From Ptiloglossa arizonensis (Eukaryota > Arthropoda > Insecta > Hymenoptera > Colletidae), in the NCBI RefSeq assembly GCF_051014685.1, contig NW_027478713.1, positions 434,001-498,000 of the forward strand: a stretch of 64,000 nt of DNA. Reading direction: 5' to 3'. Position numbers and translations under genes: made by a program. A model generated the notes under the pieces. That model made no database searches and was not told the DNA's origin. It saw only the letters and a list, made by a program, of their open reading frames with translations. This document shows positions 1 to 35,679 of the stretch, in pieces (the stretch's first letter is position 1; the number at the start of each line of letters is the position of its first letter).

Positions 1-2163
1 ACGCTATACGTTATACGTTATACGTTATACGTTATACGTTATACGTTATACGTCATAAGTTATACGTTATGCGTTATACGTTATACGTTATACGTTATAC
101 GTTATGCGTTATACGTTCTACGATATTCGTTATACGTTATACGTTATTAGTTATACGTTATACGTTATACGTTATACGTCATAGGGTATACGTTATTCGT
201 TATGCGTTATACGTTATACAATATACGTTATACGATATACGTTACACGTTATGCGTTATGCGTTCTTCGTTACACGTTATACGTTATTCGTTATGCGTTA
301 TACGTTATACGTTATACGTTATACGCTATACGTTGTACGTTATACGTTATACGTTATACGTTATACGTTATACGTTATACGTTATACGTTGTACGTTATA
401 CGTTATACGTTATACGTTATACGTTATACGTTATACGTTATACGTTATACGTTATACGTTATACGTTATACGTTATACGTTATACGTCATAGGTTATACG
501 TTATACGTTATGCGTTATACGTTATACATTATACGTTATACGATATACGTTATACGTTATGCGTTATGCGTTCTTCGTTACACGTTATACGTTATTCGGT
601 ATGCGTTATACGTTATACGTTATACGTTATACGTCATAAGTTATACGTTATACGTTATACGTTATGCGTTATACGTTCTACGATATTCGTTATACGTTAT
701 ACGTTATTAGTTATACATTATACGTTATACGTTGTACGTCATAGGTTATACGTTATACGTTATGCGTTATACGTTATACATTATACGTTATACGATATAC
801 GTTATACGTTATGCGTTATGCGTTCTTCGTTACACGTTATACGTTATTCGGTATGCGTTATACGTTATACGTTATGCGTTATGCGTTCTTCGTTACACGT
901 TATACGTTATTCGGTATGCGTTATACGTTATACGTTATACGTTATACGTTATACGTTATACGCTATACGTTATACGTTATACGTTATACGTTATACGTTA
1001 TACGTTATACGTCATAAGTTATACGTTATGCGTTATACGTTATACGTTATACGTTATACGTTATGCGTTATACGTTCTACGATATTCGTTATACGTTATA
1101 CGTTATTAGTTATACGTTATACGTTATACGTTATACGTCATAGGGTATACGTTATACAATATACGTTATACGATATACGTTACACGTTATGCGTTATGCG
1201 TTCTTCCTTACACGTTATACGTTATTCGTTATGCGTTATACGTTATACGTTATACGTTATACGCTATACGTTGTACGTTATACGTTATACGTTATACGTT
1301 ATACGTTATACGTTATACGTTATACGTTGTACGTTATACGTTATACGTTATACGTTATACGTTATACGTTATACGTTATACGTTATACGTTATACGTTAT
1401 ACGTTATACGTTATACGTTATACGTCATAGGTTATACGTTATACGTTATGCGTTATACGTTATACATTATACGTTATACGATATACGTTATACGTTATGC
1501 GTTATGCGTTCTTCGTTACACGTTATACGTTATTCGGTATGCGTTATACGTGATACGTTATACGTTATACGGTATACGTTATACGTTGTACGTTACATGT
1601 TATACGTTATACGTTATACGTTATACGGTACACGTTATACGTTGTACGTTACATGTTATACGTTATACGTTATACGTTATACGATATACGTTATACGTTA
1701 TACGTTATACGTTATACGTTATACGTTATACGTTATACGCTATACGTTACATGTTATACGTTATACACCATACATTATACGTTATACGTTATACGTTATA
1801 CGTTATACGTTATACGTTATACGTTATACGTTATACGTCATAGGTTATACGTTATACGATATACGTTATACGTTATACGTTATACGTTATACGTTATACG
1901 TTATACGTTATACGTTATACGTTATACGTTATACATTATACGTTATACGTTATACGTTATACGTTATACGTTATACGTCATAGGTTATACGTTATACGTT
2001 ATGCGGTATACATTATACATTATACGTTATACGATATACGTTATACGTTATGCGTTATGCGTTCTTCGTTACACGTTATACGTTATTGGGTATGCGTTAT
2101 ACGTTATACGTTATGCGTTATACGTTATACGTTATACGTTATACGTTATACGTTATACGTTAT

Positions 2164-2215
2164 AGGTTATACGTTACACGTTACACGTTATACCTCATAG
2201 GTTACACCTTATACG
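2164..2215 (+). repeat. ACACGTT-ATACCTC-ATAGGTT-ACACCTT module, example
   Basis: Two ACACGTT units followed by ATACCTC, ATAGGTT and ACACCTT give a small inverted repeat (ACCT, CAT, AGGT). The module recurs near 8909, 14668, 15287, 16190, 18227, 25159, 26285, 33734 and 44452. Variants occur near 42759, 46720, 60203 and 63780. In most copies outside the 6.7-kb unit an ATATTTT unit precedes it. Confidence 0.6.
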
Positions 2216-3754
2216 TTATACGTTATACGTTATACGTTATACGTTATAGGTTATACGTCATAGGTTATACGTTATACGTTATACGTTATGCGTTATACGT
2301 TATACGTTATACGTTATACGTTATACGTTATGCGTTATACGTTGTACGATATTCGTTATACGTTATACGTTATTAGTTATACGTTATACGGTATACGTTA
2401 TACGTTATACGTTATGCGTTATACGTTCTACGATATTCGTTATACGTTATACGTTATTAGTTATACGTTATACGTTATACGTTATACGTCATAGGTTATA
2501 CGTTATACGTTATGCGTTATACGTTATACATTATACGTTATATGATATACGTTATACGTTATGCGTTATGCGTTCTTCGTTACACGTTATACGTTATTCG
2601 GTATGCGTTATACGTTATACGTTATACGTTATACGTTATACGTTATACGTTATACGTTATACGTTATACGTTATACGTTATACGTTATACGTTATACGTT
2701 ATACGTTATACGTTATACGTCATAAGTTATACGTTATACGTTATACGTTATACGTTATACGTTATACGTTATGCGTTATACGTTCTACGATATTCGTTAT
2801 ACGTTATACGTTATTAGTTATACGTTATACGTTATACGTTATACGTCATAGGGTATACGTTATACGTTATGCGTTATACGTTATACATTATACGTTATAC
2901 GTTATACGTTATACGTTGTACGTTATACGTTATACGTTATACGTTATACGTTATACGTTATACGTTATACGTTATACGTTATACGTTATACGTTATACGT
3001 TATACGTTATACGTTATACGTCATAGGTTATACGTTATACGTTATGCGTTATACGTTATACATTATACGTTATACGATATACGTTATACGTTATGCGTTA
3101 TGCGTTCTTCGTTACACGTTATACGTTATTCGGTATGCGTTATACGTTGTACGTTATACGTTATACGGTATACGTTATACGTTATACGTTATACGTTATA
3201 CGTTATACGATATACGTTATACGTTATACGTTATACGTTATACGTTATACGTTGTACGTTATACGTTATACGTTATACGTTATACGTTAAACGTTATACG
3301 TTATACGTTATACGTTATACGTTATACGTTATACGTTATACGTTATACGTTATACGTTATACGTTATACGTTCTACGTTATACGTCATAGGTTATACGTT
3401 ATACGTTATGCGTTATACATTATACATTATACGTTATACGATATACGTTATACGTTATGCGTTATGCGTTCTTCGTTACACGTTATACGTTATTCGGTAT
3501 GCGTTATACGTTATACGTTATACGTTATACGGTATACGTTATACGTTATACGTTATACGTTATACGTTATACGATATACGTTATACGTTATACGTTATAC
3601 GTTATACGTTATACGTTGTACGTTATACGTTATACGTTATACGTTATACGTTAAACGTTACACGTTATACGTTATACGTTATACGTTATACGTTATACGT
3701 TATACGTTATACGTTATACGTTATACGTTATACGCTATACGTTACATGTTATAC

Positions 3755-3790
3755 GTTATACGTAGTATGTAATGCGTCATACGTTTTACG
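3755..3790 (+). repeat. GTATGTA-ATGCGTC box, example of a recurring highly diverged module
   Basis: Here the run ATACGTA, GTATGTA, ATGCGTC, ATACGTT, TTACGTT packs several substitutions into adjacent units without changing phase. By eye it recurs with the same order about 44 times, for example at ATGCGTC positions 4574, 5134, 10494, 16797, 20243, 28259, 40298, 48234 and 62116. It is usually preceded by ATACGCT and ACATGTT. Spacing is irregular. It is a useful landmark; any binding role is speculation. Confidence 0.7.
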
Positions 3791-6056
3791 TTATACGTTA
3801 TACGGTATACGTTATACGTTGTACGCTACATGTTATACGTTATACGTTATACGTTATACGGTATACGTTATACGTTGTACGTTACATGTTATACGTTATA
3901 CGTTATACGTTATACGATATACGTTATACGTTATACGTTATACGTTATACGTTATACGTTATACGTTATACGCTATACGTTACATGTTATACGTTATACA
4001 TCATACGTTATACGTTATACGTTATACGTTATACGTTATACGTTATACGTTATACGTTATACGTCATAGGTTATACGTTATACGATATACGTTATACGTT
4101 ATACGTTATACGTTATACGTTATACGTTATACGTTATACGTTATACATTATACGTTATACGTTATACGTTATACGTTATACGTTATACGTCATAGGTTAT
4201 ACGTTATACGTTATGCGGTATACGTTATACATTATACGTTATACGATATACGTAATACGTTATGCGTTATGCGTTCTTCGTTACACGTTATACGTTATTG
4301 GGTATGCGTTATACGTTATACGTTATGCGTTATACGTTATACGTTATACGTTATACGTTATACGTTATACGTTATGCGTTATACGTTGTACGATATTCGT
4401 TATACGTTATACGTTATTAGTTATACGTTATACGGTATACGTTATACGTTGTACGTTACATGTTATACGTTATACGTTATACGTTATACGTTATACGTTA
4501 TACGTTATACGCTATACGTTACATGTTATACGTTATACGCTATACGTTACATGTTATACGTTATACGTAGTATGTAATGCGTCATACGTTTTACGTTATA
4601 CGTTATACGGTATACGTTATACGTTGTACGCTACATGTTATACGTTATACGTTATACGTTATACGGTATACGTTATACGTTGTACGTTACATGTTATACG
4701 TTATACGTTATACGTTATACGATATACGTTATACGTTATACGTTATACGTTATACGTTATGCGTTATACGTTATACATTATACGTTATACGATATACGTT
4801 ATACGTTATGCGTTATGCGTTCTTCGTTACACGTTATACGTTATTCGGTATGCGTTATACGTTATACGTTATACGTTATACGGTATACGTTATACGTTAT
4901 ACGTTATACGTTATACGTTATACGATATACGTTATACGTTATACGTTATACGTTATACGTTATACGTTATACGTTATACGTTGTACGTTATACGTTATAC
5001 GTTATACGTTATACGTTAAACGTTATTCGTTATACGTTATACGTTATACGTTATACGTTATACGTTATACGTTATACGTTATACGTTATACGTTATACGC
5101 TATACGTTACATGTTATACGTTATACGTAGTATGTAATGCGTCATACGTTTTACGTTATACGTTATACGGTATACGTTATACGTTGTACGTTACATGTTA
5201 TACGTTATACGTTATACGTTATACGTTATACGTTATACGTCATAGGTTATACGTTATACGTTATACGTTATACGTTATACGTTATACGTCATACGTTATA
5301 CGTTATACGTTATACGTTATACGTTATACGTTATACGTTATACGTTATACGTTATATGTTTTACGTTATACGTTATACGTTATACGTTATACGTTATACG
5401 TTATACGTTATACGTTAAACGTTATACGTTATACGTTATACGTTATACGTTGTACGCTATACGTTACATGTTATACGTTATACGTAGTATGTAATGCGTC
5501 ATACGTTTTACGTTATTCGTTATACGTTTTTCGTTACAAGTTATACGTTATACGTTATACGTTATACGTCATAGGTTATACGTTATACGTTATACGTTAT
5601 ACGTTATACATTATGCGTTATACGTTTTACGTTATTCGTTATACGTTATACGTTATACGTTATACGTTATACGTTATACGTTATACGTTATACGTTATAC
5701 GTTATACGTTATACGTTATACGTTATACGTTATACGTTATACGTTATACGTTATACGTTGTACGTTATACGTTATAAGTTGTACGTCCTACGATATTCGT
5801 TATACGTTATACGTTATTAGTTATACGTTATACGTTATACGTTATACGTCATAGGGTATACGTTATACGTTATGCGTTATACGTTATACATTATACGTTA
5901 TACGATATACGTTATACGTTATGCGTTATGCGTTCTTCGTTACACGTTATACGTTATTCGTTATGCGTTATACTTTCTTCGTTACACGTTATACGTTATT
6001 CGGTATGCGTTATACGTTATACGTTATACGTTATACGTTATACGTTATACGTTATA

Positions 6057-6060
6057 CGCT
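6057..6060. repeat. Left target-site duplication of island 1 (CGCT)
   Basis: CGCT here is repeated directly after the island at 6314-6317. Including the preceding A gives a possible 5-bp duplication, ACGCT (6056-6060 and 6313-6317). Because the flanks are themselves repeats, the support rests on the phase test: only one copy is needed to rebuild an intact ATACGCT unit. Confidence 0.6.
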
Positions 6061-6124
6061 TTTGGCGGCGCTAAATTAAAGTATGTGAGGAAGGAGAGAA
6101 CGGAGATATAAGGATGTGGGGATA

Positions 6125-6193
6125 AGCGTTTCATCCCGGGCCTGCTAGTGGACTCGTCAGTAAGGCATCCTAGCAGGCCCTGCCTTATACGCC
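6125..6193 (-). ncRNA. Type III hammerhead self-cleaving ribozyme (copy 1)
   Basis: All parts are read on the minus strand. Stem III 3' strand GGCGT is 6193-6189, with the last T at position 16.1. The nucleotide 5' of the scissile bond is A6188 (GTA triplet), so cleavage falls between 6188 and 6187. Stem I is TAAGGCA (6187-6181) with TGCCTTA (6167-6161), seven perfect pairs around a 13-nt loop. The core CTGACGA is 6160-6154. Stem II is GTCC (6153-6150) with GGAT (6136-6133), including one G-U pair next to the core, around a 13-nt loop. GAA is 6132-6130, then A6129 (15.1) starts ACGCT (6129-6125), which pairs with GGCGT. Every invariant core residue of the hammerhead family is present; the variable position 7 is C. 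The open stem is III, a topology known from viroid-like RNAs and plant retrozymes. Activity is inferred, not shown. Confidence 0.9.
6138..6180. repeat. Perfect 11-bp inverted repeat joining ribozyme loops I and II
   Basis: GGGCCTGCTAG at 6138-6148 is the exact reverse complement of CTAGCAGGCCC at 6170-6180, with 21 nt between them. In the ribozyme RNA the two arms sit in loop II and loop I, so the loops could pair with each other. Alternatively they could form one long hairpin that excludes stems I and II. In DNA this is a potential cruciform. The second copy is 12856-12898. Confidence 0.9.
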
Positions 6194-6221
6194 GGGACAT
6201 TGGAAGATCGGTAAGAGGTCG

Positions 6222-6229
6222 TATATATA
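6222..6229 (-). promoter_or_regulatory. TATA-like motif upstream of the ribozyme (copy 1)
   Basis: TATATATA sits inside the GC-richer part of the island. On the minus strand its downstream edge is 35 nt before the predicted cleavage position 6187. A TATA box at that distance would place a transcription start at roughly the first base of the hammerhead. The motif is self-complementary, so direction is inferred from the ribozyme alone. GATCGG occurs on both sides (6206-6211 and 6232-6237). Confidence 0.3.
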
Positions 6230-6313
6230 GCGATCGGAGCAGGTACGGGAACTTGCGGGAAACGGTTGGTGGTGAGTTTCCCTCTGGTGGCAAGCGTGGG
6301 TAGTGCCGCCACA

Positions 6314-6317
6314 CGCT
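6314..6317. repeat. Right target-site duplication of island 1 (CGCT)
   Basis: Partner of 6057-6060. The satellite resumes at 6318 with ATACGTT. The corresponding pair for island 2 is 12775-12778 and 13032-13035. Confidence 0.6.
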
Positions 6318-6360
6318 ATACGTTATACGTTATACGTTATACGTTATACGTTATACGTTA

Positions 6361-8285
6361 TACGTCATAAGTTATACGTTATACGTTATACGTTATGCGT
6401 TATACGTTCTACGATATTCGTTATACGTTATACGTTATTAGTTATACATTATACGTTATACGTTGTACGTCATAGGTTATACGTTATACGTTATGCGTTA
6501 TACGTTATACATTATACGTTATACGATATACGTTATACGTTATGCGTTATGCGTTCTTCGTTACACGTTATACGTTATTCGGTATGCGTTATACGTTATA
6601 CGTTATGCGTTATGCGTTCTTCGTTACACGTTATACGTTATTCGGTATGCGTTATACGTTATACGTTATACGTTATACGTTATACGTTATACGCTATACG
6701 TTATACGTTATACGTTATACGTTATACGTTATACGTTATACGTTATACGTCATAAGTTATACGTTATGCGTTATACGTTATACGTTATACGTTATACGTT
6801 ATGCGTTATACGTTCTACGATATTCGTTATACGTTATACGTTATTAGTTATACGTTATACGTTATACGTTATACGTCATAGGGTATACGTTATTCGTTAT
6901 GCGTTATACGTTATACAATATACGTTATACGATATACGTTACACGTTATGCGTTATGCGTTCTTCGTTACACGTTATACGTTATTCGTTATGCGTTATAC
7001 GTTATACGTTATACGTTATACGCTATACGTTGTACGTTATACGTTATACGTTATACGTTATACGTTATACGTTATACGTTATACGTTGTACGTTATACGT
7101 TATACGTTATACGTTATACGTTATACGTTATACGTTATACGTTATACGTTATACGTTATACGTTATACGTTATACGTTATACGTCATAGGTTATACGTTA
7201 TACGTTATGCGTTATACGTTATACATTATACGTTATACGATATACGTTATACGTTATGCGTTATGCGTTCTTCGTTACACGTTATACGTTATTCGGTATG
7301 CGTTATACGTTATACGTTATACGTTATACGTCATAAGTTATACGTTATACGTTATACGTTATGCGTTATACGTTCTACGATATTCGTTATACGTTATACG
7401 TTATTAGTTATACATTATACGTTATACGTTGTACGTCATAGGTTATACGTTATACGTTATGCGTTATACGTTATACATTATACGTTATACGATATACGTT
7501 ATACGTTATGCGTTATGCGTTCTTCGTTACACGTTATACGTTATTCGGTATGCGTTATACGTTATACGTTATGCGTTATGCGTTCTTCGTTACACGTTAT
7601 ACGTTATTCGGTATGCGTTATACGTTATACGTTATACGTTATACGTTATACGTTATACGCTATACGTTATACGTTATACGTTATACGTTATACGTTATAC
7701 GTTATACGTCATAATTTATACGTTATGCGTTATACGTTATACGTTATACGTTATACGTTATGCGTTATACGTTCTACGATATTCGTTATACGTTATACGT
7801 TATTAGTTATACGTTATACGTTATACGTTATACGTCATAGGGTATACGTTATTCGTTATGCGTTATACGTTATACAATATACGTTATACGATATACGTTA
7901 CACGTTATGCGTTATGCGTTCTTCGTTACACGTTATACGTTATTCGTTATGCGTTATACGTTATACGTTATACGTTATACGCTATACGTTGTACGTTATA
8001 CGTTATACGTTATACGTTATACGTTATACGTTATACGTTATACGTTGTACGTTATACGTTATACGTTATACGTTATACGTTATACGTTATACGTTATACG
8101 TTATACGTTATACGTTATACGTTATACGTTATACGTTATACGTCATAGGTTATACGTTATACGTTATGCGTTATACGTTATACATTATACGTTATACGAT
8201 ATACGTTATACGTTATGCGTTATGCGTTCTTCGTTACACGTTATACGTTATTCGGTATGCGTTATACGTGATACGTTATACGTTA
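6361..8285 (+). repeat. Tandem pair of about 0.96-kb units inside the 6.7-kb unit
   Basis: The module order from the ATACGTC-ATAAGTT pair near 6361 through the CTTCGTT and ATTCGGT units is repeated from about 7327. Anchors lie 966 bp apart at first (6463 and 7429; 6542 and 7508) and 959 bp apart later (6899 and 7858), the difference being one heptamer. 959 is 137 units. The left part-copy has the equivalent pair at about 200 and 1140, while copy 3 has only one unit (13188-13907). Copy number therefore differs between otherwise near-identical 6.7-kb units. Confidence 0.75.
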
Positions 8286-11200
8286 TACGGTATACGTTAT
8301 ACGTTGTACGTTACATGTTATACGTTATACGTTATACGTTATACGGTACACGTTATACGTTGTACGTTACATGTTATACGTTATACGTTATACGTTATAC
8401 GATATACGTTATACGTTATACGTTATACGTTATACGTTATACGTTATACGTTATACGCTATACGTTACATGTTATACGTTATACACCATACATTATACGT
8501 TATACGTTATACGTTATACGTTATACGTTATACGTTATACGTTATACGTTATACGTCATAGGTTATACGTTATACGATATACGTTATACGTTATACGTTA
8601 TACGTTATACGTTATACGTTATACGTTATACGTTATACGTTATACGTTATACATTATACGTTATACGTTATACGTTATACGTTATACGTTATACGTCATA
8701 GGTTATACGTTATACGTTATGCGGTATACATTATACATTATACGTTATACGATATACGTTATACGTTATGCGTTATGCGTTCTTCGTTACACGTTATACG
8801 TTATTGGGTATGCGTTATACGTTATACGTTATGCGTTATACCTTATACGTTATACGTTATACGTTATACGTTATACGTTATAGGTTATACGTTACACGTT
8901 ACACGTTATACCTCATAGGTTACACCTTATACGTTATACGTTATACGTTATACGTTATACGTTATAGGTTATACGTCATAGGTTATACGTTATACGTTAT
9001 ACGTTATGCGTTATACGTTATACGTTATACGTTATACGTTATACGTTATGCGTTATACGTTGTACGATATTCGTTATACGTTATACGTTATTAGTTATAC
9101 GTTATACGGTATACGTTATACGTTATACGTTATGCGTTATACGTTCTACGATATTCGTTATACGTTATACGTTATTAGTTATACGTTATACGTTATACGT
9201 TATACGTTATACGTCATAGGTTATACGTTATACGTTATGCGTTATACGTTATACATTATACGTTATATGATATACGTTATACGTTATGCGTTATGCGTTC
9301 TTCGTTACACGTTATACGTTATTCGGTATGCGTTATACGTTATACGTTATACGTTATACGTTATACGTTATACGTTATACGTTATACGTTATACGTTATA
9401 CGTTATACGTTATACGTTATACGTTATACGTTATACGTCATAAGTTATACGTTATACGTTATACGTTATACGTTATACGTTATACGTTATGCGTTATACG
9501 TTCTACGATATTCGTTATACGTTATACGTTATTAGTTATACGTTATACGTTATACGTTATACGTCATAGGGTATACGTTATACGTTATGCGTTATACGTT
9601 ATACATTATACGTTATACGTTATACGTTATACGTTGTACGTTATACGTTATACGTTATACGTTATACGTTATACGTTATACGTTATACGTTATACGTTAT
9701 ACGTTATACGTTATACGTTATACGTTATACGTTATACGTCATAGGTTATACGTTATACGTTATGCGTTATACGTTATACATTATACGTTATACGATATAC
9801 GTTATACGTTATGCGTTATGCGTTCTTCGTTACACGTTATACGTTATTCGGTATGCGTTATACGTTGTACGTTATACGTTATACGGTATACGTTATACGT
9901 TATACGTTATACGTTATACGTTATACGATATACGTTATACGTTATACGTTATACGTTATACGTTATACGTTGTACGTTATACGTTATACGTTATACGTTA
10001 TACGTTAAACGTTATACGTTATACGTTATACGTTATACGTTATACGTTATACGTTATACGTTATACGTTATACGTTATACGTTATACGTTCTACGTTATA
10101 CGTCATAGGTTATACGTTATACGTTATGCGTTATACATTATACATTATACGTTATACGATATACGTTATACGTTATGCGTTATGCGTTCTTCGTTACACG
10201 TTATACGTTATTCGGTATGCGTTATACGTTATACGTTATACGTTATACGGTATACGTTATACGTTATACGTTATACGTTATACGTTATACGTTATACGAT
10301 ATACGTTATACGTTATACGTTATACGTTATACGTTATACGTTGTACGTTATACGTTATACGTTATACGTTATACGTTAAACGTTATACGTTATACGTTAT
10401 ACGTTATACGTTATACGTTATACGTTATACGTTATACGTTATACGTTATACGTTATACGCTATACGTTACATGTTATACGTTATACGTAGTATGTAATGC
10501 GTCATACGTTTTACGTTATACGTTATACGGTATACGTTATACGTTGTACGCTACATGTTATACGTTATACGTTATACGTTATACGGTATACGTTATACGT
10601 TGTACGTTACATGTTATACGTTATACGTTATACGTTATACGATATACGTTATACGTTATACGTTATACGTTATACGTTATACGTTATACGTTATACGCTA
10701 TACGTTACATGTTATACGTTATACATCATACGTTATACGTTATACGTTATACGTTATACGTTATACGTTATACGTTATACGTTATACGTCATAGGTTATA
10801 CGTTATACGATATACGTTATACGTTATACGTTATACGTTATACGTTATACGTTATACGTTATACGTTATACATTATACGTTATACGTTATACGTTATACG
10901 TTATACGTTATACGTCATAGGTTATACGTTATACGTTATGCGGTATACGTTATACATTATACGTTATACGATATACGTTATACGTTATACGTTATACGTT
11001 GTACGTTATACGTTATACGTTATACGTTATACGTTAAACGTTATTCGTTATACGTTATACGTTATACGTTATACGTTATACGTTATACGTTATACGTTAT
11101 ACGTTATACGTTATACGCTATACGTTACATGTTATACGTTATACGTAGTATGTAATGCGTCATACGTTTTACGTTATACGTTATACGGTATACGTTATAC

Positions 11201-12842
11201 GTTGTACGTTACATGTTATACGTTATACGCTATACGTTACATGTTATACGTTATACGCTATACGTTACATGTTATACGTTATACGTAGTATGTAATGCGT
11301 CATACGTTTTACGTTATACGTTATACGGTATACGTTATACGTTGTACGCTACATGTTATACGTTATACGTTATACGTTATACGGTATACGTTATACGTTG
11401 TACGTTACATGTTATACGTTATACGTTATACGTTATACGATATACGTTATACGTTATACGTTATACGTTATACGTTATGCGTTATACGTTATACATTATA
11501 CGTTATACGATATACGTTATACGTTATGCGTTATGCGTTCTTCGTTACACGTTATACGTTATTCGGTATGCGTTATACGTTATACGTTATACGTTATACG
11601 GTATACGTTATACGTTATACGTTATACGTTATACGTTATACGATATACGTTATACGTTATACGTTATACGTTATACGTTATACGTTATACGTTATACGTT
11701 GTACGTTATACGTTATACGTTATACGTTATACGTTAAACGTTATTCGTTATACGTTATACGTTATACGTTATACGTTATACGTTATACGTTATACGTTAT
11801 ACGTTATACGTTATACGCTATACGTTACATGTTATACGTTATACGTAGTATGTAATGCGTCATACGTTTTACGTTATACGTTATACGGTATACGTTATAC
11901 GTTGTACGTTACATGTTATACGTTATACGTTATACGTTATACGTTATACGTTATACGTCATAGGTTATACGTTATACGTTATACGTTATACGTTATACGT
12001 TATACGTCATACGTTATACGTTATACGTTATACGTTATACGTTATACGTTATACGTTATACGTTATACGTTATATGTTTTACGTTATACGTTATACGTTA
12101 TACGTTATACGTTATACGTTATACGTTATACGTTAAACGTTATACGTTATACGTTATACGTTATACGTTGTACGCTATACGTTACATGTTATACGTTATA
12201 CGTAGTATGTAATGCGTCATACGTTTTACGTTATTCGTTATACGTTTTTCGTTACAAGTTATACGTTATACGTTATACGTTATACGTCATAGGTTATACG
12301 TTATACGTTATACGTTATACGTTATACATTATGCGTTATACGTTTTACGTTATTCGTTATACGTTATACGTTATACGTTATACGTTATACGTTATACGTT
12401 ATACGTTATACGTTATACGTTATACGTTATACGTTATACGTTATACGTTATACGTTATACGTTATACGTTATACGTTGTACGTTATACGTTATAAGTTGT
12501 ACGTCCTACGATATTCGTTATACGTTATACGTTATTAGTTATACGTTATACGTTATACGTTATACGTCATAGGGTATACGTTATACGTTATGCGTTATAC
12601 GTTATACATTATACGTTATACGATATACGTTATACGTTATGCGTTATGCGTTCTTCGTTACACGTTATACGTTATTCGTTATGCGTTATACTTTCTTCGT
12701 TACACGTTATACGTTATTCGGTATGCGTTATACGTTATACGTTATACGTTATACGTTATACGTTATACGTTATACGCTTTTGGCGGCGCTAAATTAAAGT
12801 ATGTGAGGAAGGAGAGAACGGAGATATAAGGATGTGGGGATA

Positions 12843-12911
12843 AGCGTTTCATCCCGGGCCTGCTAGTGGACTCGTCAGTAAGGCATCCTAGCAGGCCCTG
12901 CCTTATACGCC
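12843..12911 (-). ncRNA. Type III hammerhead self-cleaving ribozyme (copy 2)
   Basis: This is an identical copy 6,718 bp downstream. The predicted cleavage is between 12906 and 12905 on the minus strand. The core CTGACGA is at 12878-12872 and the GAA at 12850-12848. Because both copies lie in the same orientation in one array, a minus-strand read-through RNA cut at both sites would release a 6,718-nt satellite RNA with the termini typical of hammerheads (5'-hydroxyl, 2',3'-cyclic phosphate). Confidence 0.9.
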
Positions 12912-12939
12912 GGGACATTGGAAGATCGGTAAGAGGTCG

Positions 12940-12947
12940 TATATATA
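12940..12947 (-). promoter_or_regulatory. TATA-like motif upstream of the ribozyme (copy 2)
   Basis: Same motif and spacing in the duplicated island, 35 nt before position 12905. Confidence 0.3.
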
Positions 12948-14477
12948 GCGATCGGAGCAGGTACGGGAACTTGCGGGAAACGGTTGGTGGTGAGTTTCCC
13001 TCTGGTGGCAAGCGTGGGTAGTGCCGCCACACGCTATACGTTATACGTTATACGTTATACGTTATACGTTATACGTTATACGTTATACGTCATAAGTTAT
13101 ACGTTATACGTTATACGTTATGCGTTATACGTTCTACGATATTCGTTATACGTTATACGTTATTAGTTATACATTATACGTTATACGTTGTACGTCATAG
13201 GTTATACGTTATACGTTATGCGTTATACGTTATACATTATACGTTATACGATATACGTTATACGTTATGCGTTATGCGTTCTTCGTTACACGTTATACGT
13301 TATTCGGTATGCGTTATACGTTATACGTTATGCGTTATGCGTTCTTCGTTACACGTTATACGTTATTCGGTATGCGTTATACGTTATACGTTATACGTTA
13401 TACGTTATACGTTATACGCTATACGTTATACGTTATACGTTATACGTTATACGTTATACGTTATACGTCATAAGTTATACGTTATGCGTTATACGTTATA
13501 CGTTATACGTTATACGTTATGCGTTATACGTTCTACGATATTCGTTATACGTTATACGTTATTAGTTATACGTTATACGTTATACGTTATACGTCATAGG
13601 GTATACGTTATTCGTTATGCGTTATACGTTATACAATATACGTTATACGATATACGTTACACGTTATGCGTTATGCGTTCTTCGTTACACGTTATACGTT
13701 ATTCGTTATGCGTTATACGTTATACGTTATACGTTATACGCTATACGTTGTACGTTATACGTTATACGTTATACGTTATACGTTATACGTTATACGTTAT
13801 ACGTTGTACGTTATACGTTATACGTTATACGTTATACGTTATACGTTATACGTTATACGTTATACGTTATACGTTATACGTTATACGTTATACGTTATAC
13901 GTCATAGGTTATACGTTATACGTTATGCGTTATACGTTATACATTATACGTTATACGATATACGTTATACGTTATGCGTTATGCGTTCTTCGTTACACGT
14001 TATACGTTATTCGGTATGCGTTATACGTGATACGTTATACGTTATACGGTATACGTTATACGTTGTACGTTACATGTTATACGTTATACGTTATACGTTA
14101 TACGGTACACGTTATACGTTGTACGTTACATGTTATACGTTATACGTTATACGTTACACGATATACGTTATACGTTATACGTTATACGTTATACGTTATA
14201 CGTTATACGTTATACGCTATACGTTACATGTTATACGTTATACACCATACATTATACGTTATACGTTATACGTTATACGTTATACGTTATACGTTATACG
14301 TTATACGTTATACGTCATAGGTTATACGTTATACGATATACGTTATACGTTATACGTTATACGTTATACGTTATACGTTATACGTTATACGTTATACGTT
14401 ATACGTTATACATTATACGTTATACGTTATACGTTATACGTTATACGTTATACGTCATAGGTTATACGTTATACGTT

Positions 14478-15490
14478 ATGCGGTATACATTATACATTAT
14501 ACGTTATACGATATACGTTATACGTTATGCGTTATGCGTTCTTCGTTACACGTTATACGTTATTGGGTATGCGTTATACGTTATACGTTATGCGTTATAC
14601 GTTATACGTTATACGTTATACGTTATACGTTATACGTTATAGGTTATACGTTACACGTTACACGTTATACCTCATAGGTTACACCTTATACGTTATACGT
14701 TATACGTTATACGTTATACGTTATAGGTTATACGTCATAGGTTATACGTTATACGTTATACGTTATGCGTTATACGTTATACGTTATACGTTATACGTTA
14801 TACGTTATGCGTTATACGTTGTACGATATTCGTTATACGTTATACGTTATTAGTTATACGTTATACGGTATACGTTATACGTTATACGTTATACGTTATA
14901 CGTTATACGTTATACGTTATACGTTATACGTTATACATTATACGTTATACGTTATACGTTATACGTTATACGTTATACGTCATAGGTTATACGTTATACG
15001 TTATGCGGTATACATTATACATTATACGTTATACGATATACGTTATACGTTATGCGTTATGCGTTCTTCGTTACACGTTATACGTTATTGGGTATGCGTT
15101 ATACGTTATACGTTATGCGTTATACGTTATACGTTATACGTTATACGTTATACGTTATACGTTATACGTTATACGTTATACGTTATACGTTATACGTTAT
15201 ACGTTATACGTTATACGTTATATTTTATTCGTTATACGTTGTACGTTATACGTTGTACGTTATACGTTACACGTTACACGTTATACCTCATAGGTTACAC
15301 CTTATACGTTATACGTTATACGTTATACGTTATACGTTATAGGTTATACGTCATAGGTTATACGTTATACGTTATACGTTATGCGTTATACGTTATACGT
15401 TATACGTTATACGTTATACGTTATGCGTTATACGTTGTACGATATTCGTTATACGTTATACGTTATTAGTTATACGTTATACGGTATACG
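14478..15490 (+). repeat. Short direct duplication (offset 525, then 616 bp) at the edge of the 6.7-kb domain
   Basis: The block starting ATGCGGT at 14478, with two ATACATT units and the ATTGGGT variant, recurs at 15003, an offset of 75 units. The later part, with ACACGTT twice and ATACCTC, recurs at an offset of 616 bp (88 units). The 13 extra heptamers of the second copy include an ATATTTT and an ATTCGTT unit. This marks the transition from the 6.7-kb domain to the mosaic domain. Confidence 0.6.
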
Positions 15491-18400
15491 TTATACGTTG
15501 TACGTTACATGTTATACGTTATACGTTATACGTTATACGTTATACGATATACGTTATGCGTTATACGTTATACGTTATACGTTATACGTTATACGTTATA
15601 CGTTATACGCTATACGTTACATGTTATACGTTATACATTATACGTTATACGTTATACGTTATACGTTATACGTTATACGTTATACGTTATACGTTATACG
15701 TTATACGTCATAGGTTATACGTTATATGTTATACGTTATACGTTATACGTTATACGTTATACGTTATACGTTATACGTTATACGTTATACGTTATACGTC
15801 ATAAGTTATACGTTATACGTTATACGTTATACGTTATACGTTATACGTTATACGTTATGCGTTATACGTTCTACGATATTCGTTATACGTTATACGTTAT
15901 TAGTTATACGTTATACGTTATACGTTATACGTCATAGGGTATACGTTATACGTTATGCGTTATACGTTATACATTATACGTTATACGATATACGTTATAC
16001 GTTATGCGTTATGCGTTCTTCGTTACACGTTATACGTTATTCGTTATACGTTATACGTTATACGTTATACGTTATACGTTATACGTTATACGTTATACGT
16101 TATACGTTATACGTTATATTTTATACGTTATACGTTATACGTTATACGTTGTACGTTATACGTTACACGTTACACGTTATACCTCATAGGTTACACCTTA
16201 TACGTTATACGTTATACGTTATACGTTATACGTTATAGGTTATACGTCATAGGTTATACGTTATACGTTATACGTTATGCGTTATACGTTATACGTTATA
16301 CGTTATACGTTATGCGTTATACGTTGTACGATATTCGTTATACGTTATACGTTATTAGTTATACGTTATACGGTATACGTTATACGTTGTACGTTACATG
16401 TTATACGTTATACGTTATACGTTATACGTTATACGTTATACGTTATACGTTATACGTTATACGTTGTACGTTATACGCTATACGTTACATGTTATACGTT
16501 ATACATTATACGTTATACGTTATACGTTATACGTTATACGTTATACGTTATACGTTATACGTCATAGGTTATACGTTATACGTTATACGTGATACGTTAT
16601 ACGTTATACGTCATACGTTATACGTTATACGTTATACGTTATACGTTATACGTTAAATGTTTTACGTTATACGTTATACGTTATACGTTATACGTTATAC
16701 GTTATACGTTATACGTTATACGTTAAACGTTATACGTTATACGTTATACGTTATACGTTTTACGCTATACGTTACATGTTATACGTTATACGTAGTATGT
16801 AATGCGTCATACGTTTTACGTTATTCGTTATACGTTTTTCGTTACAAGTTATACGTTATACGTTATACGTTATACGTCATAGGTTATACGTTATACGTTA
16901 TACGTTATACGTTATACATTATGCGTTATACATTTTACGTTATTCGTTATACGTTATACGTTATACGTTATACGTTATACGTTATACGTTATACGTTATA
17001 CGTTATACGTTATACGTTATACGTTATACGTTATACGTTATACGTTATACGTTATACGTTATACGTTGTACGTTATACGTTATAAGTTGTACGTTATACG
17101 ATATACGTTATACGTTATTCGTTATACGTACTTCGTTACACTTTATACGTTATACGTTATACGTTATACGTTATACATTATACGTTATACGTTATACGTT
17201 ATACGTTATACGTTATACGTCATAGGTTATACGTTATACGTTATGCGTTATACGTTATACATTATACGTTATACGATATACGTTATACGTTATGCGTTAT
17301 GCGTTCTTCGTTACACGTTATACGTTATTCGGTATACGTTATACGTTATACGTTATACGTTATACGTTATACGTTATACGTTATACGTTATACGTTATAC
17401 GTTATACGTTATACGTTACATGTTATACGTTATACGTAGTATGTAATGCGTCATACGTTTTACGTTATTCGTTATACGTTTTTCGTTACAAGTTATACGT
17501 TATACGTTATACGTTATACGTCATAGGTTATACGTTATACGTTATACGTTATACGTTATACATTATGCGTTATACGTTTTACGTTATTCGTTATACGTTA
17601 TACGTTATACGTTATACGTTATATGTTTTACGTTATACGTTATACGTTATACGTTATACGTTATACGTTATACATTATACGTTATACGTTATACGTTAAA
17701 CGTTATACGTTATACGTTATACGTTATACGTTATACGTTATACGTCATACGTTATACGTTATACGTTATACGTTATACGTTATACGTTATACGTTATACG
17801 TTATACGTTATACGTTGTACGTTATACGTTATAAGTTGTACGTTATACGATATACGTTATACGTTATTCGTTATACGTACTTCGTTACACTTTATACGTT
17901 ATGCGTTATACGTTATACGTTATACGTTATACGTTGTACGTTATACGTTATAAGTTGTACGTTATACGATATACGTTATACGTTATTCGTTATACGTACT
18001 TCGTTACACTTTATACGTTATACGTTATACGTTATACGTTTTACGATATACGACATACGTTATACGTTATACGTTATACGTTATACGTTATACGTTATAC
18101 GTTATACGTTATACGTTATACGTTATACGTTATACGTTATACGTTATACGTTATACGTTATATTTTATACGTTATACGTTATACGTTATACGTTGTACGT
18201 TATACGTTACACGTTACACGTTATACCTCATAGGTTACACCTTATACGTTATACGTTATACGTTATACGTTATACGTTATACGTTATAGGTTATACGTCA
18301 TAGGTTATACGTTATACGTTATACGTTATGCGTTATACGTTATACGTTATACGTTATACGTTATACGTTATACGTTATGCGTTATACGTTGTACGATATT

Positions 18401-20240
18401 CGTTATACGTTATACGTTATTAGTTATACGTTGTACGGTATACGTTATACGTTGTACGTTACATGTTATACGTTATACGTTATACGTTATACGTTATACG
18501 TTATACGTTATACGTTATACGTTATACGTTATACGTTATACGCTATACGTTACATGTTATAGGTTATACATTATACGTTATACGTTATACGTTATACGTT
18601 ATACGTTATACGTTATACGTTATACGTTACACGTCATAGGTTATACGTTATACGTTATACGTTATACGTTATACGTTATACGTCATACGTTATACGTTAT
18701 ACGTTATACGTTATACGTTATACGTTATACGTTATACGTTAAATGTTTTACGTTATACGTTATACGTTATACGTTATACGTTATACGTTATACGTTATAC
18801 GTTAAACGTTATACGTTATATGTTATACGTTATACGTTTTACGCTATACGTTACATGTTATACGTTATACGTAGTATGTAATGCGTCATACGTTTTACGT
18901 TATTCGTTATACGTTTTTCGTTACAAGTTATACGTTATACGTTATACGTTATACGTCATAGGTTATACGTTATACGTTATACGTTATACGTTATACATTA
19001 TGCGTTATACATTTCACGTTATTCGTTATACGTTATACGTTATACGTTATACGTTATACGTTATGCGTTATGCGTTGTACGGTATACGTTATACGTTGTA
19101 CGTTACATGTTATACGTTATACGTTATACGTTATACGATATACGTTATACGTTATACGTTATACGTTATACGTTATACGTTATACGTTATACGCTATACG
19201 TTACATGTTATACGTTATACGTAGTATGTAATGCGTCATACGTTTTACGTTATACGTTATACGGTATGCGTTATACGTTGTACGTTACATGTTATACGTT
19301 ATACGTTATACGTTATACGATATACGTTATACGTTATACGTTATACGCTATACGTTATATGATATACGTTATACATTATGCGTTATGCGTCCTTCGTTAC
19401 ACGTTATACGTTATTCGGTATGCGTTATACGTTATACGTTATTAGTTATACGTTATACGTTATACGTTATACGTTATACGATATACGTTATACGTTATAC
19501 GTTATACGATATACGTTATACGTTATACGTTAAACGTTATGCGTTATACGTTCTACGATATTCGTTATACGTTATACGTTATTAGTTATACGTTATACGT
19601 TATACGTTATACGTTATACATTATACGTTATACGTTATACGTTATATGTTATACGTTATACGTCATAGGTTATACGTTATACGTTATGCGGTATACGTTA
19701 TACGTTATACGTTATACATTATACGTTATACGTTATACGTTATACGTTATACGTTATACGTTATACGTTATGCGTTATACGTTCTACGATATTCGTTATA
19801 CGTTATACGTTATTAGTTATACGTTATACGTTATACGTTATACGTCATAGGTTATACGTTATACGTTATGCGTTATACGTTATACATTATACGTTATATG
19901 ATATACGTTATACATTATGCGTTATGCGTCCTTCGTTACACGTTATACGTTATTCGGTATGCGTTATACGTTATACGTTATTAGTTATACGTTATACGTT
20001 ATACGTTATACGTTATACGATATACGTTATACGTTATACGTTATACGATATACGTTATACGTTATACGTTAAACGTTATGCGTTATACGTTCTACGATAT
20101 TCGTTATACGTTATACGTTATTAGTTATACGTTATACGTTATACGTTATACGTTATACGATATACGTTATACGTTATACGTTATACGTTATACGTTATAC
20201 GTTACACGCTATACGTTACATGTTATACGTTATACGTAGT
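14891..20240 (+). repeat. Mosaic satellite region
   Basis: Only heptamers, and no register break at all: 13036 to 20729 is exactly 1,099 units. Module types not present in the first 15 kb appear here, notably ATACGTA followed by CTTCGTT and ACACTTT (first near 17128) and TTACGAT followed by ATACGAC (near 18040). About 17290-18300 matches about 43525-44460 at offset 26,234. No gene, RNA or unique DNA was seen. Confidence 0.85.
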
Positions 20241-21550
20241 ATGTAATGCGTCATACGTTTTACGTTATACGTTATACGGTATACGTTATACGTTGTACGT
20301 TACATGTTATACGTTATACGTTATACGTTATACGATATACGTTATACGTTATACGTTATACGTTATACGTTATACGTTATACGTTATACGTTATACGCTA
20401 TACGTTACATGTTATACGTTATACATTATACGTTATACGTTATACGTTATACGTTATACGTTATACGTTATACGTTATACGTCATAGGTTATACGTTATA
20501 CGTTATACGTTATACGTTATACGTTATACGTCATACGTTATACGTTATACGTTATACGTTATAAGTTATACGTTATACGTTATACGTTATACGTTATACG
20601 TTATACGTTATACGTTATACGTTATACGTTATATGTTTTACGTTATACGTTATACGTTATACGTTATACGTTATACGTTATACGTTATACGTTATACGTT
20701 ATACGTTAAACGTTATACGTTATACGTTATCGTTATACGTTATACGCTATACGTTACATGTTATACGTTATACGTAGTATGTAATGCGTCATACGTTTTA
20801 CGTTATTCGTTATACGTTTTTCGTTACAAGTTATACGTCATACGTTATACGTTATACGTCATAGGTTATACGTTATACGTTATACGTTATACATTATGCG
20901 TTATACGTTTTACGTTATTCGTTATACGTTATACGTTATACGTTATACGTTATACGTTATACGTTATACGTTATACGTTATACGTTATACGTTATTCGTT
21001 ATACGTTATACGTTATACGTTATACGTTATACGTTATACGTTATACGTTATACGTTATACGTTATACGTTATACGTTATACGTTATACGTTATACGTTAT
21101 ACGTTATACGTTATACGTTATACGTTATACGTTATACGTTATACGTTATACGTTATACGTTATACGTTATACGTTATACGTTATACGTTATGCGGTATAC
21201 GTTATACGTTATACGTTATACGATATACGTTATACGTTATGCATTATGCGTGCTTCGTTACACGTTATACGTTATTCGGTATGCGTTATACGTTATACGT
21301 TGTACGTTATACGTTATATGTTATACGTTATACGTTATACGTTATACGTTACACGTTATACGTTATACGTTATACGTTATTCGTTATACGTTATATTTTA
21401 TACGTTATACGTTGTACGTTATACGTTATAAGTTGTACGTTATACGATATACGTTATACGTTATTCTTTATACGTTATTCGTTACACGTTATAAGTTGTA
21501 CGTTATACGATATACGTTATACGTTATTCTTTATACGTTATTCGTGACAC
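20241..21550 (+). repeat. Higher-order segment shared with 35.8-36.8 and 37.6-38.5 kb
   Basis: The segment starting at the GTATGTA-ATGCGTC box (20243) recurs at 35876 (offset 15,633) and again at 37632 (1,756 further). It contains the hexamer ATCGTT at 20729-20734 in the same context as its relatives. It ends in the ATTCTTT modules, first seen near 21460. Confidence 0.7.
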
Positions 21551-21959
21551 GTTATACGTCATACGTTATACGTTATACGTTTTACGTTATTCGTTATACG
21601 TTATACGTTATACGATATTCGTTATACGTTATACGTTGTACGTTATACGTTATACGTTATACGTTATACGTTATACGTTATACGTTATACGTTATACGCT
21701 ATACGTTACATGTTATACGTTATACATTATACGTTATACGTTATACGTTATACGTTATACGTTATACGTTATACGTTATACGTTTTACGATATACGACAT
21801 ACGTTATACGTTATACGTTATACGTTATACTTTATACGTTATAGGTGTTACGTTATACGTTATACGTTATACGTTATACGTTATACGTTATATTTTATAC
21901 GTTATACGTTATACGTTATACGTTGTACGTTATACGTTACACGTTATACGTTATACGTT

Positions 21960-23450
21960 ATACGTTATACGTTATACGTTATACGTTATACGTTATACGT
22001 TATACGTTATACGTTATACGTTATACGTTATACGTTATACGTTATACGTTATACGTTGTACTTTATACGTTATAAGTTGTACGTTATACGATATACGTTA
22101 TACGTTATTCTTTATACGTTCTTCGTTACACGTTATACGTTATACGTTATACGTTATACGTTTAACGTTATTCGTTATACGTTATACGTTATACTTTATA
22201 CGTTATAGGTGATACGTTATACGTTATACGTTATACGTTATTCGTAATACGTTATACGTGATACGTTATACGTTGTACGTTATACGTTATACGTTATACG
22301 TTATACGCTATACATTAAACGTTATACGTTATACATTACATGTTATACGTTATACGTTATACGTTATACGTCATAGGTTATACGTTATACGTTATACGTT
22401 ATACGTTATACGTTATACTTTACGTTATACGTCATAGGTTATACGTTATACGTTATACGTTATGCGTTATACGTTATACGTTATACGTTATACGTTATGC
22501 GTTATGCGTTGTACGGTATACGTTATACGTTGTACGTTACATGTTATACGTTATACGTTATACGTTATACGATATACGTTATACGTTATACGTTATACGT
22601 TATACGTTATACGTTATACGTTATACGCTATACGTTACATGTTATACGTTATACGTAGTATGTAATGCGTCATACGTTTTACGTTATACGTTATACGGTA
22701 TGCGTTATACGTTGTACGTTACATGTTATACGTTATACGTTATACGTTATACGATATACGTTATACGTTATACGTTATACGTTATACGTTATACGTTATA
22801 CGTCATACGCTATACGTTACATGTTATACGTTATACATTATACGTTATACGCTATACGTTATACGTTATACGTTATACGTTATACGTTATACGTTATACG
22901 TTATACATTATACGTTATACGTTATACGTTATATGTTATACGTTATACGTCATAGGTTATACGTTATACGTTATGCGGTATACGTTATACGTTATACGTT
23001 ATACGTTATACGTTATACGTTATACGTTACACGTTATACGTTATGCGTTATACGTTATACGTTATACGTTATACGTTATACGTTATACGTTATACGTTAT
23101 ACATTATACGTTATACGTTATACGTTATACGTTATACGTTATACGTTATACGTTATACGTTATACGTTATACGCTATACGTTACATGTTATACGTTATAC
23201 ATTATACGTTATACGTTATACGTTATACGTTATACGTTATACGTTATGCGTTATACGTTATACGTTATACGTTATACGTTATACGTTATACGTTATACGT
23301 TATACGTTGTACGTTATACGTTATAGGTTATACGTTATACGTTATACGTTATACGTTATACGTTATACGTCATAAGTTATACGTTATACGTTATACGTTA
23401 TACGTTATACGTTATACTTTATACGTTATACGTTATGCGTTATACGTTCT
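21960..23450 (+). repeat. Copy 1 of a 1.5-kb segment repeated at offset 4,442
   Basis: Anchors at 22212, 22340, 22462 and 22723 recur exactly 4,442 bp downstream. 4,442 is 635 units less 3 bp, explained by one pentamer (22422) and one hexamer (24310) in between. It carries the pentamer ACGTT at 22422-22426. A third related copy lies at about 33.9-35.4 kb. Confidence 0.75.
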
Positions 23451-26399: not shown

Positions 26400-27900
26400 T
26401 TATACGTTATACGTTATACGTTATACGTTATACGTTATACGTTATACGTTATACGTTATACGTTATACGTTATACGTTATACGTTATACGTTATACGTTG
26501 TACTTTATACGTTATAAGTTGTACGTTATACGATATACGTTATACGTTATTCTTTATACGTTCTTCGTTACACGTTATACGTTATACGTTATACGTTATA
26601 CGTTTAACGTTATTCGTTATACGTTATACGTTATACTTTATACGTTATAGGTGATACGTTATACGTTATACGTTATACGTTATTCGTAATACGTTATACG
26701 TGATACGTTATACGTTGTACGTTATACGTTATACGTTATACGTTATACGCTATACATTAAACGTTATACGTTATACATTACATGTTATACGTTATACGTT
26801 ATACGTTATACGTCATAGGTTATACGTTATACGTTATACGTTATACGTTATACGTTATACTTTACGTTATACGTCATAGGTTATACGTTATACGTTATAC
26901 GTTATGCGTTATACGTTATACGTTATACGTTATACGTTATGCGTTATGCGTTGTACGGTATACGTTATACGTTGTACGTTACATGTTATACGTTATACGT
27001 TATACGTTATACGATATACGTTATACGTTATACGTTATACGTTATACGTTATACGTTATACGTTATACGCTATACGTTACATGTTATACGTTATACGTAG
27101 TATGTAATGCGTCATACGTTTTACGTTATACGTTATACGGTATGCGTTATACGTTGTACGTTACATGTTATACGTTATACGTTATACGTTATACGATATA
27201 CGTTATACGTTATACGTTATACGTTATACGTTATACGTTATACGTCATACGCTATACGTTACATGTTATACGTTATACATTATACGTTATACGCTATACG
27301 TTATACGTTATACGTTATACGTTATACGTTATACGTTATACGTTATACATTATACGTTATACGTTATACGTTATATGTTATACGTTATACGTCATAGGTT
27401 ATACGTTATACGTTATGCGGTATACGTTATACGTTATACGTTATACGTTATACGTTATACGTTATACGTTACACGTTATACGTTATGCGTTATACGTTAT
27501 ACGTTATACGTTATACGTTATACGTTATACGTTATACGTTATACATTATACGTTATACGTTATACGTTATACGTTATACGTTATACGTTATACGTTATAC
27601 GTTATACGTTATACGCTATACGTTACATGTTATACGTTATACATTATACGTTATACGTTATACGTTATACGTTATACGTTATACGTTATGCGTTATACGT
27701 TATACGTTATACGTTATACGTTATACGTTATACGTTATACGTTATACGTTGTACGTTATACGTTATAGGTTATACGTTATACGTTATACGTTATACGTTA
27801 TACGTTATACGTCATAAGTTATACGTTATACGTTATACGTTATACGTTATACGTTATACTTTATACGTTATACGTTATGCGTTATACGTTCTACGATATT
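26400..27900 (+). repeat. Copy 2 of the 4,442-offset segment
   Basis: Matches 21960-23450 through the pentamer at 26864-26868. It ends where an extra ATACGTT appears before ATTAGTT near 27915. The piece just before it (about 26.1-26.7 kb) also matches about 25.0-25.57 kb at offset 1,120. Confidence 0.75.
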
Positions 27901-33405: not shown

Positions 33406-33899
33406 CGTTATACGTTGTACGTTATACGTTATACGTTATACGTTATACGTTATACGTTATACGTTATACGTTATACGCTATACGTTACATGTTATACGTT
33501 ATACATTATACGTTATACGTTATACGTTATACGTTATACGTTATACGTTATACGTTATACGTTTTACGATATACGACATACGTTATACGTTATACGTTAT
33601 ACGTTATACTTTATACGTTATAGGTGTTACGTTATACGTTATACGTTATACGTTATACGTTATACGTTATATTTTATACGTTATACGTTATACGTTATAC
33701 GTTGTACGTTATACGTTACACGTTACACGTTATACCTCATAGGTTACACCTTATACGTTATACGTTATACGTTATACGTTATACGTTATACTTTATACGT
33801 TATACGTTATACGTTATACGTTATACGTTATACGTTATACGTTATACGTTATACGTTATACGTTATACGTTATACGTTATACGTTATACGTTATACGTT

Positions 33900-35400: not shown

Positions 35401-35679
35401 TTATGCGTTATACGTTCTACGATATTCGTTATACGTTATACGTTATTAGTTATACGTTATACGTTATACGTTATACGTCATAGGTTATACGTTATACGTT
35501 ATGCGTTATACGTTATACATTATACGTTATATGATATACGTTATACGTTATGCGTTATGCGTTCTTCGTTACACGTTATACGTTATTCGGTATGCGTTAT
35601 ACGTTATACGTTATTAGTTATACGTTATACGTTATACGTTATACGTTATACGATATACGTTATACGTTATACGTTATAC

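Follow-up and report, generated by a model that had tools for sequence, protein, structure and literature searches.

The ribozyme-bearing island in the stretch of DNA that we analysed (64,000 nucleotides, contig C343:434001-498000; hereafter the window) is very probably the solo long terminal repeat (LTR) of a retrozyme-type LTR retrotransposon that is small and non-coding, and for which we propose a route of movement through transcription, self-cleavage and a circular RNA. A hammerhead is present in both LTRs of this non-coding element, whose anatomy, insertion with a target site duplication (TSD), dispersal, copies with identical LTRs, solo LTRs and conserved ribozyme can be read directly from its copies in the genome (998,670,959 bases searched in 2016 contigs).

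A complete type III hammerhead ribozyme

The first-pass annotation had placed a complete type III hammerhead with its parts in the correct order on the minus strand, and this reading is confirmed in every part at 6193-6125. The invariant core (CUGANGA, GAA, the A15.1-U16.1 pair and an NUH cleavage triplet) is entirely present, the three stems are there with the lengths that had been claimed for them (seven pairs in stem I, four in stem II, four to five in stem III), and the open stem III gives the type III topology (Table 1). The statement that this was the only structured RNA candidate in 64 kb was off by one, as an identical copy lies at 12911-12843.

Table 1. Features of the window (positions are those of the whole stretch)
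Feature	Position	Strand	Evidence and remarks
Type III hammerhead ribozyme	6125..6193	(-)	descriptor, Rfam alignment and fold; predicted cut between 6188 and 6187
Stem III, 5' strand	6189..6193	(-)	partner 6125-6129; 4 Watson-Crick pairs and one G-U
GUA triplet	A17 at 6188	(-)	
Stem I, 5' strand	6181..6187	(-)	partner 6161-6167; 7 pairs
Loop I segment GGGCCUGCUAG	6170..6180	(-)	11 nt complementary to loop II
Stem I, 3' strand	6161..6167	(-)	partner 6181-6187
CUGACGA catalytic core	6154..6160	(-)	
Stem II, 5' strand	6150..6153	(-)	partner 6133-6136; 4 pairs, the first G-U
Loop II segment CUAGCAGGCCC	6138..6148	(-)	11 nt complementary to loop I
Stem II, 3' strand	6133..6136	(-)	partner 6150-6153
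GAA, then A15.1	6130..6132	(-)	
Stem III, 3' strand	6125..6129	(-)	partner 6189-6193
Second hammerhead, identical to the first	12843..12911	(-)	descriptor and self-comparison of the window
Solo LTR of the retrozyme, 253 bp, 5'-TGTGGCGGC...GCCGCCAAA-3'	6061..6313	(-)	TSD analysis and LTR pairs elsewhere in the genome
TSD CGCT (AGCG on the minus strand), 3' side of the LTR	6057..6060		TSD analysis
TSD CGCT, 5' side of the LTR	6314..6317		TSD analysis
Candidate TATA box TATATATA	6222..6229	(-)	inferred from sequence; LTR positions 85-92, ~30-35 nt upstream of the ribozyme
Second, identical solo LTR	12779..13031	(-)	self-comparison; carried by the 6718-bp satellite duplication
CGTTATA heptamer satellite hosting both solo LTRs	1..64000	(+)	TRF: one array, 88% matches

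Two descriptors were used to gauge chance expectation. The first (type III, a GAAA-containing core, each of the three stems with 4 pairs or more) has only two matches in the window, both on the minus strand (6187.. and 12905..), and none in 96.5 Mb of Markov sequence modelled on the island. The second (GAA, stem I of at least 5 pairs) found 3 matches in 4.164 Gb of composition-matched random sequence, which corresponds to about 4e-7 expected in the island on both strands. A chance origin of the hammerhead motif is excluded for practical purposes.

The Rfam model for type III hammerheads (RF00008, Hammerhead_3), the check that the first-pass annotation had proposed, scores 6193-6125 at only 22.8 bits (E 0.016 in a 401-base search), under its curated gathering score of 48.5, so that the annotation's own refuting test, a score below threshold, formally goes against it. 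No Rfam family reaches its gathering score anywhere in the 64-kb window; RF00008 reported nothing over the whole genome (68 of 95,232 first-look candidates scored), and two diverged copies (L086 and L087) are absent from its list even at E 0.5. The Rfam alignment presents both ribozyme loops as long insertions relative to the model, and it is to these that we attribute the low score; the gathering cut-off is a curator's threshold and no structural feature.

The ribozyme resides in the LTRs of a short non-coding element

When the island was compared with its own genome, 40 matches were scored among 1182 candidates; they are 98-100% identical to it, and many lie about 760 bp apart. The 30 loci that we examined are the best of these matches and, with the window added, account for all 40. 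At 27 of the 30 loci two directly repeated LTRs begin 755-769 bp from each other, and the remaining three (L056, L058, L065) hold one LTR each. Full copies are 1007-1024 bp long and run in the order LTR (253 bp), primer-binding site (PBS), non-coding centre of about 508 bp, polypurine tract (PPT) and second LTR. The centre measures 505-516 bp in 25 copies (531 and 538 bp in L044 and L048, where the first LTR is cut short) and is 91-100% identical to that of L036; one reading frame that runs through it and on into the 3' LTR was without a match in Pfam. The PPT precedes the second LTR in all 27 copies, as GGCAAGGGGGTTA in 26 of them and as GGCAAGAGGGTTA in L044. The PBS, (A)GTGGTGACCCCGTC, follows the first LTR in all 25 copies in which this site is displayed; in L044 and L048 the first-LTR alignment ends before it.

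LTR elements prime from sites of this kind. Over 11 nt, after which the match stops, the PBS TGGTGACCCCG is complementary to the 3' end, with CCA added, of a tRNA-Trp-like stretch ending in CACGTCGGGGTCA (C4:4777367-4777410); this stretch is the single genome match to a pattern written from an animal tRNA-Trp, 3' end included.

An exact 4-bp TSD encloses 22 of the 27 LTR pairs, and one pair (L042) has a 5-bp match. The other four pairs without an exact TSD (L045, L048, L057, L059) carry a PPT ahead of their first LTR or a PBS behind their last one, and hence are parts of tandem units. Such tandem LTR-centre-LTR-centre units are reported for plant retrozymes as well and are expected from copying round a circle. 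In 11 of the 27 pairs the two LTRs are identical to each other.

Drawn from the island alone, the initial reading had been a MITE-like DNA transposon with short terminal inverted repeats and an incidental hammerhead, and the inverted ends of the island (16 nt, 81% complementary) together with the 4-bp duplication speak for it. The LTR-centre-LTR architecture refutes this reading: direct repeats surround a centre with PBS and PPT, mostly within one TSD, at 27 of 30 loci, and the inverted ends are the short ones usual for LTRs. We therefore regard a MITE as very improbable.

Solo LTRs in the heptamer satellite

Apart from the heptamer, only two stretches of at least 12 bases occur in the window (6066-6306 and 12784-13024). 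The two LTR copies at these places show 0 differences over 290 bp and lie inside a 6718-bp repeat of the array. The first is also free of differences from L065 (C343:433368) across the LTR and its flanks (377 bp upstream, 699 bp downstream), and in our reading of these alignments the two window copies and L065 would represent one insertion that became solo by LTR-LTR recombination and was multiplied with the satellite. Another single LTR, that of L056 on contig C566, shares the TSD word. The LTR itself departs at 2 of 253 positions, but the flanks, in an ungapped comparison, do so at 84 of 700 and at 98 of 699.

The surroundings of the 27 LTR pairs are mixed. Heptamer DNA flanks eight of them on both sides (L036, L043, L046, L047, L049, L060, L061, L063) and three on one side (L045, L057, L059), while 16 are flanked by other DNA. 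The satellite is one landing place of the element and lies outside the element itself. The first-pass annotation had seen an apparently undescribed element in a heptamer satellite; the satellite location stands, but the element also occurs outside it, and "undescribed" gives way to our assignment of the island as the solo LTR of an LTR retrozyme of about 1 kb.

The satellite has a higher-order structure, with the 6718-bp repeat extending over roughly the first 19 kb; after 20.7 kb the heptamer phase shifts repeatedly, and further periods are seen near 5744-5759 and 3400 bp. Exact arrays (at least 4 units) of the same heptamer also occur as 27 stretches in bacterial and archaeal contigs of several phyla (L001-L027), nine of them in one Dysgonamonadaceae bin. 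A short-word BLAST of the island against these 27 stretches returned only 12-17-base matches (E at least 1.7). In viral contigs, three patterns taken from the island and a fourth of the heptamer had 0 matches; no relatives of the island were found in the phage collection, and the plasmid collection yielded one record only, with a 30-base match (E 0.8).

Copy number and conservation of the ribozyme

A pattern that covers the core and stem II only, CTGANGAGTCCN{6,24}GGAYGAAAC, has 691 matches (362 + 329) genome-wide, and its reversed control has 0. Among the first 100 of the 691, 60 make 30 pairs at distances of 759-773 bp and 40 are single; the single ones could represent solo LTRs as well as copies whose partner has decayed.

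The 27 pairs comprise 54 LTRs, and the 52 full-length ones among them were compared with each other, the cut-short ones in L044 and L048 being excluded. The ribozyme stretch is identical in 50 of these 52, and the other two differ solely beyond stem III. No column varies among the 69 of the ribozyme, whereas 40 of the 252 columns of the LTR do (hypergeometric P 7e-7; this value overstates the case, since the copies share descent and were chosen as the best matches to the query). Thirty-three of the variable columns lie at LTR positions 192-244, just downstream of the ribozyme, and only 7 of 120 upstream of it, so that the excess conservation of the ribozyme over the upstream part is modest. 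The identity of the ribozyme as a type III hammerhead is backed by its structure, by the chance controls and by the absence of variable columns in the 52 best-matching LTR copies.

LTR positions 192-244 correspond to 6122-6070 in the window, the variation being concentrated between the ribozyme and the 3' end of the LTR. Four LTR pairs (L047, L059, L064, L052) differ internally at 12-17 positions, with the ribozyme identical; template switching is a possible cause of these differences. A single diverged hammerhead (L086, G000:C1:14327740-14327900) resembles the family within the ribozyme only. It was considered as a second family and set aside as a singleton, since the other 39 scored matches reach at most residues 40-125 of its 161, which is the ribozyme; it is perhaps the relic of an older retrozyme family.

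Complementarity between loops I and II

The two ribozyme loops are perfectly complementary over 11 nt (6180-6170 with 6148-6138), a feature absent from the first-pass annotation, which might be either a kissing pair or a competing hairpin. Judged from the sequence, a loop-loop helix is likely, and the loops probably dock through part of this complementarity. The same 11 nt also allow an inactive form, an 11-bp hairpin of the two loop segments, which according to the folding model is the minimum-energy fold (-30.3 kcal/mol, as against -13.4 for the nested hammerhead). The loop-loop duplex alone is worth -25.6 before the penalty for closing the loops, so that, by our own estimate, little energy plausibly separates the docked hammerhead from the hairpin, the programs leaving the pseudoknot unscored. 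In our judgement, 11 consecutive pairs within two 13-nt loops are sterically difficult, and part of the complementarity may therefore serve the hairpin. A loop pseudoknot is predicted for about 40% of hammerheads and accelerates the tested ones with 5-6 pairs in the account of Perreault et al. (PMC3088659), and the ribozyme of plant retrozyme RNAs is described as being predicted in a blocked conformation as well (PMC4918200).

Covariation was assessed in a non-random alignment of 16 rows, namely the window copy and 15 departures from it (ten places and five more) picked from the pattern listings. In this alignment 90.8% of cells are paired, compared with 34-43% in slid versions. Three pairs have changed on both sides: two in stem III, both in L086, and one in the loop-loop helix, in L098. 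Of 500 shuffles, 13 reach the observed percentage of paired cells; the double-change counts are reached by 63 and 79, the pair types by 18 and the covariation score by 14. The covariation, including that of the loop-loop helix, is hence weak and suggestive. Loop-loop pairing is often broken in diverged copies (L091, L095, L098), and in L091 and L095 it is largely lost, with a longest run of 4. In L086, the most diverged copy, stem III reads UGUGU/ACACA instead of the GGCGU/ACGCU of the family and the cleavage site is GUC; in a register set by eye that differs from that of the program, its loop-loop helix has one U-A pair replaced by C-G and two mismatches.

These data bear on the idea that the hammerhead is a relic or is held inactive, the 11-bp loop hairpin being the conserved entity and cleavage having no role. 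This would agree with the hairpin as the minimum-energy fold and with the low Rfam score. Yet the core and stems I, II and III are invariant in 52 of 52 LTRs (best matches), which exceeds what a hairpin needs, and the diverged L086 has retained the whole core, together with a stem III built from other pairs, but has two mismatches in stem I. On balance, we consider an inactive hammerhead unlikely.

Proposed route of transposition

By analogy with plant retrozymes we infer the RNA steps of its movement, that is, transcription, cleavage, circle formation and reverse transcription. Transcription would start in the 5' LTR just upstream of the ribozyme; the candidate TATA box would place the start a few bases before the ribozyme, which begins at LTR position 121. 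Cleavage by the two hammerheads would then release monomers of about 762 nt that carry 5'-OH and cyclic-phosphate termini, and these would be ligated into circles. With tRNA-Trp as primer, a reverse transcriptase from an autonomous LTR retrotransposon might copy round the circles, and the cDNA might be integrated with a 4-bp duplication. In the window, LTR-LTR recombination would have left a solo LTR, which amplification of the satellite would have copied every 6.7 kb. For plant retrozymes, the circles and the LTR promoter are reported as demonstrated and the later steps as proposed (PMC4918200, PMC12029980, PMC7761336).

Circular monomers of 4 of the 27 copies were folded. Each is more stable than its 30 shuffles (z -2.4 to -4.8) and has 57-58% of its bases paired, compared with 53-55% in the shuffles; this fraction is lower than the more than 70% quoted for retrozyme-like RNAs (PMC4918200).

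Relationship to known hammerhead-bearing and short LTR elements

The LTR retrozymes of plants, as described by Cervera et al. (2016; PMC4918200) and for NbRZ1 (PMC12029980), share with the present element a type III hammerhead in each LTR, a non-coding centre between PBS and PPT, a 4-bp TSD and solo LTRs. The spacing of cleavage sites, 697-776 in the Jatropha retrozymes (PMC4918200) and about 762 here, is similar, and so is the placement of the LTR promoter upstream of the ribozyme: the mapped start of NbRZ1 is at LTR position 116 (PMC12029980), and our candidate TATA box occupies positions 85-92. The differences lie in the details. Plant retrozymes are described with LTRs of 300-400 bp (253 bp here) and with loops of 6-8 and 4 nt that make non-Watson-Crick contacts (PMC7936874), whereas the loops of the present ribozyme have 13 nt and an 11-nt complementarity. 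Their PBS is of the tRNA-Met type; that of our element fits tRNA-Trp, so that we do not place it in the plant retrozyme lineage. The hosts are plants in the one case and probably an insect in the other, and the likeness is one of plan.

In Hymenoptera, TRIMs (PbTRIM of Pogonomyrmex, PMC3532108) and Helenus (PMC10886601) likewise are short and non-coding and have PBS, PPT, a 4-bp TSD and solo LTRs. The general definition of a TRIM (short and non-coding, under about 1 kb, with PBS, PPT and TSD) applies to our element, whose 1007-1024 bp lie at the upper limit. Some hymenopteran families of Helenus are reported to use tRNA-Trp, as here (PMC10886601), while PbTRIM has a tRNA-Leu PBS, and the word hammerhead is absent from the main text of its description (PMC3532108). 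The LTRs of Helenus are described as tRNA-derived (PMC10886601), whereas no tRNA or 5S match was obtained in L036 and L037 up to E 0.5; membership in Helenus or Ajax (TRIMp3) was rejected for this lack of tRNA- or 5S-derived LTR sequence.

Pseudoknotted type III hammerheads have been described from HDV-like RNAs of toad and termite, from Drosophila pseudoobscura and other flies and from satCYDV-RPV (PMC7936874), and have in common with ours the topology, Watson-Crick complementarity between loops I and II, and occurrence in insect genomes. In that description their helices are longer, the loop consensus of the HDV-like set is GCCR with YGGC, and the termite genomic motifs appear as isolated ones for which no LTR element is described, whereas here 11 complementary nt lie in terminal loops of a ribozyme within an LTR. 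That HDV-like RNAs of toad and termite, and termite and dipteran genomes, carry such ribozymes (PMC7936874) could suggest that the island is the captured DNA copy of a circular, viroid-like or HDV-like RNA agent. The descriptor finds the hammerhead on one strand only, the one reading frame of the centre that was compared with Pfam is without a match, and an LTR retrotransposon is indicated by the ends and the duplications; we accordingly give a captured RNA agent very little credence. A common origin of this ribozyme and those of HDV-like agents is possible.

In animals, hammerheads are reported to be common in Penelope-like elements and tandem repeats (PMC7229834, PMC7761336). Metazoan non-LTR retrozymes resemble our element in being animal, non-coding and hammerhead-bearing, with a proposed movement through circular RNA, but are described as type I, in tandem units of 150-450 bp, and as having no LTR, PBS, PPT or 4-bp TSD (PMC7229834). 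All four of the latter features are present here, next to a type III ribozyme. Membership in the Penelope-like or metazoan non-LTR elements is contradicted by this anatomy, and a Penelope-like or satellite-type hammerhead element of the animal sort is scarcely credible as an explanation; the LTR retrozyme remains our preferred assignment.

Host genome

Twenty 10-kb samples of the genome have a GC content of 38.9% and a CpG observed/expected ratio of 1.69; a ratio of this kind is typical of Hymenoptera. A mariner transposase from one of the samples (L078:42-977) shares 98% identity, over 96% of its length, with a protein annotated in the colletid bee Ptiloglossa arizonensis; many proteins of the pseudoscorpion Cordylochernes reach up to 97%. 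The organisms named among the 120 best of its 6206 matches are all arthropods (Ptiloglossa arizonensis, Cordylochernes, a beetle, an ant and a termite). Mariners jump between species, and these identities suggest a recent horizontal transfer. We therefore assign the host to the arthropods with good confidence and regard a bee as its most likely, though conjectural, identity. Long reading frames with a repetitive, mirror-like composition occur in L078, L084 and L051 and would point to large minisatellite arrays.

Implications

In the papers that we cite, LTR retrozymes with type III hammerheads are assigned to plants and non-LTR retrozymes with type I hammerheads to animals (PMC7229834, PMC7761336), and insects with type III elements are mentioned as "in preparation" (PMC7761336). 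Among the matches listed, none of the titles and abstract openings of open-access papers on hammerheads or retrozymes presents an animal LTR retrozyme; we claim no priority. We float, as a tentative possibility that we would not call probable, the wider notion that an animal lineage has LTR retrozymes of its own, with hundreds of type III hammerheads maintained in a tRNA-Trp-primed LTR element of insects, through a second, independent invention of the plant scheme or old transfer, and that these could be a source of the pseudoknotted type III hammerheads of insect HDV-like agents. In the same tentative spirit, the 11-nt complementarity might act as a switch, in which docked loops would cut the nascent transcript and the hairpin would protect the circle.

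At the level of annotation, a hammerhead family that has hundreds of pattern matches in one genome escapes the Rfam cut-off for type III. An insect LTR retrozyme with recent activity would break the line drawn between LTR retrozymes in plants and non-LTR retrozymes in animals, and would provide a second case, now in animals, for testing the circular-RNA route of LTR transposition. It would also bear on the question of where the HDV-like agents of insects got their ribozymes.
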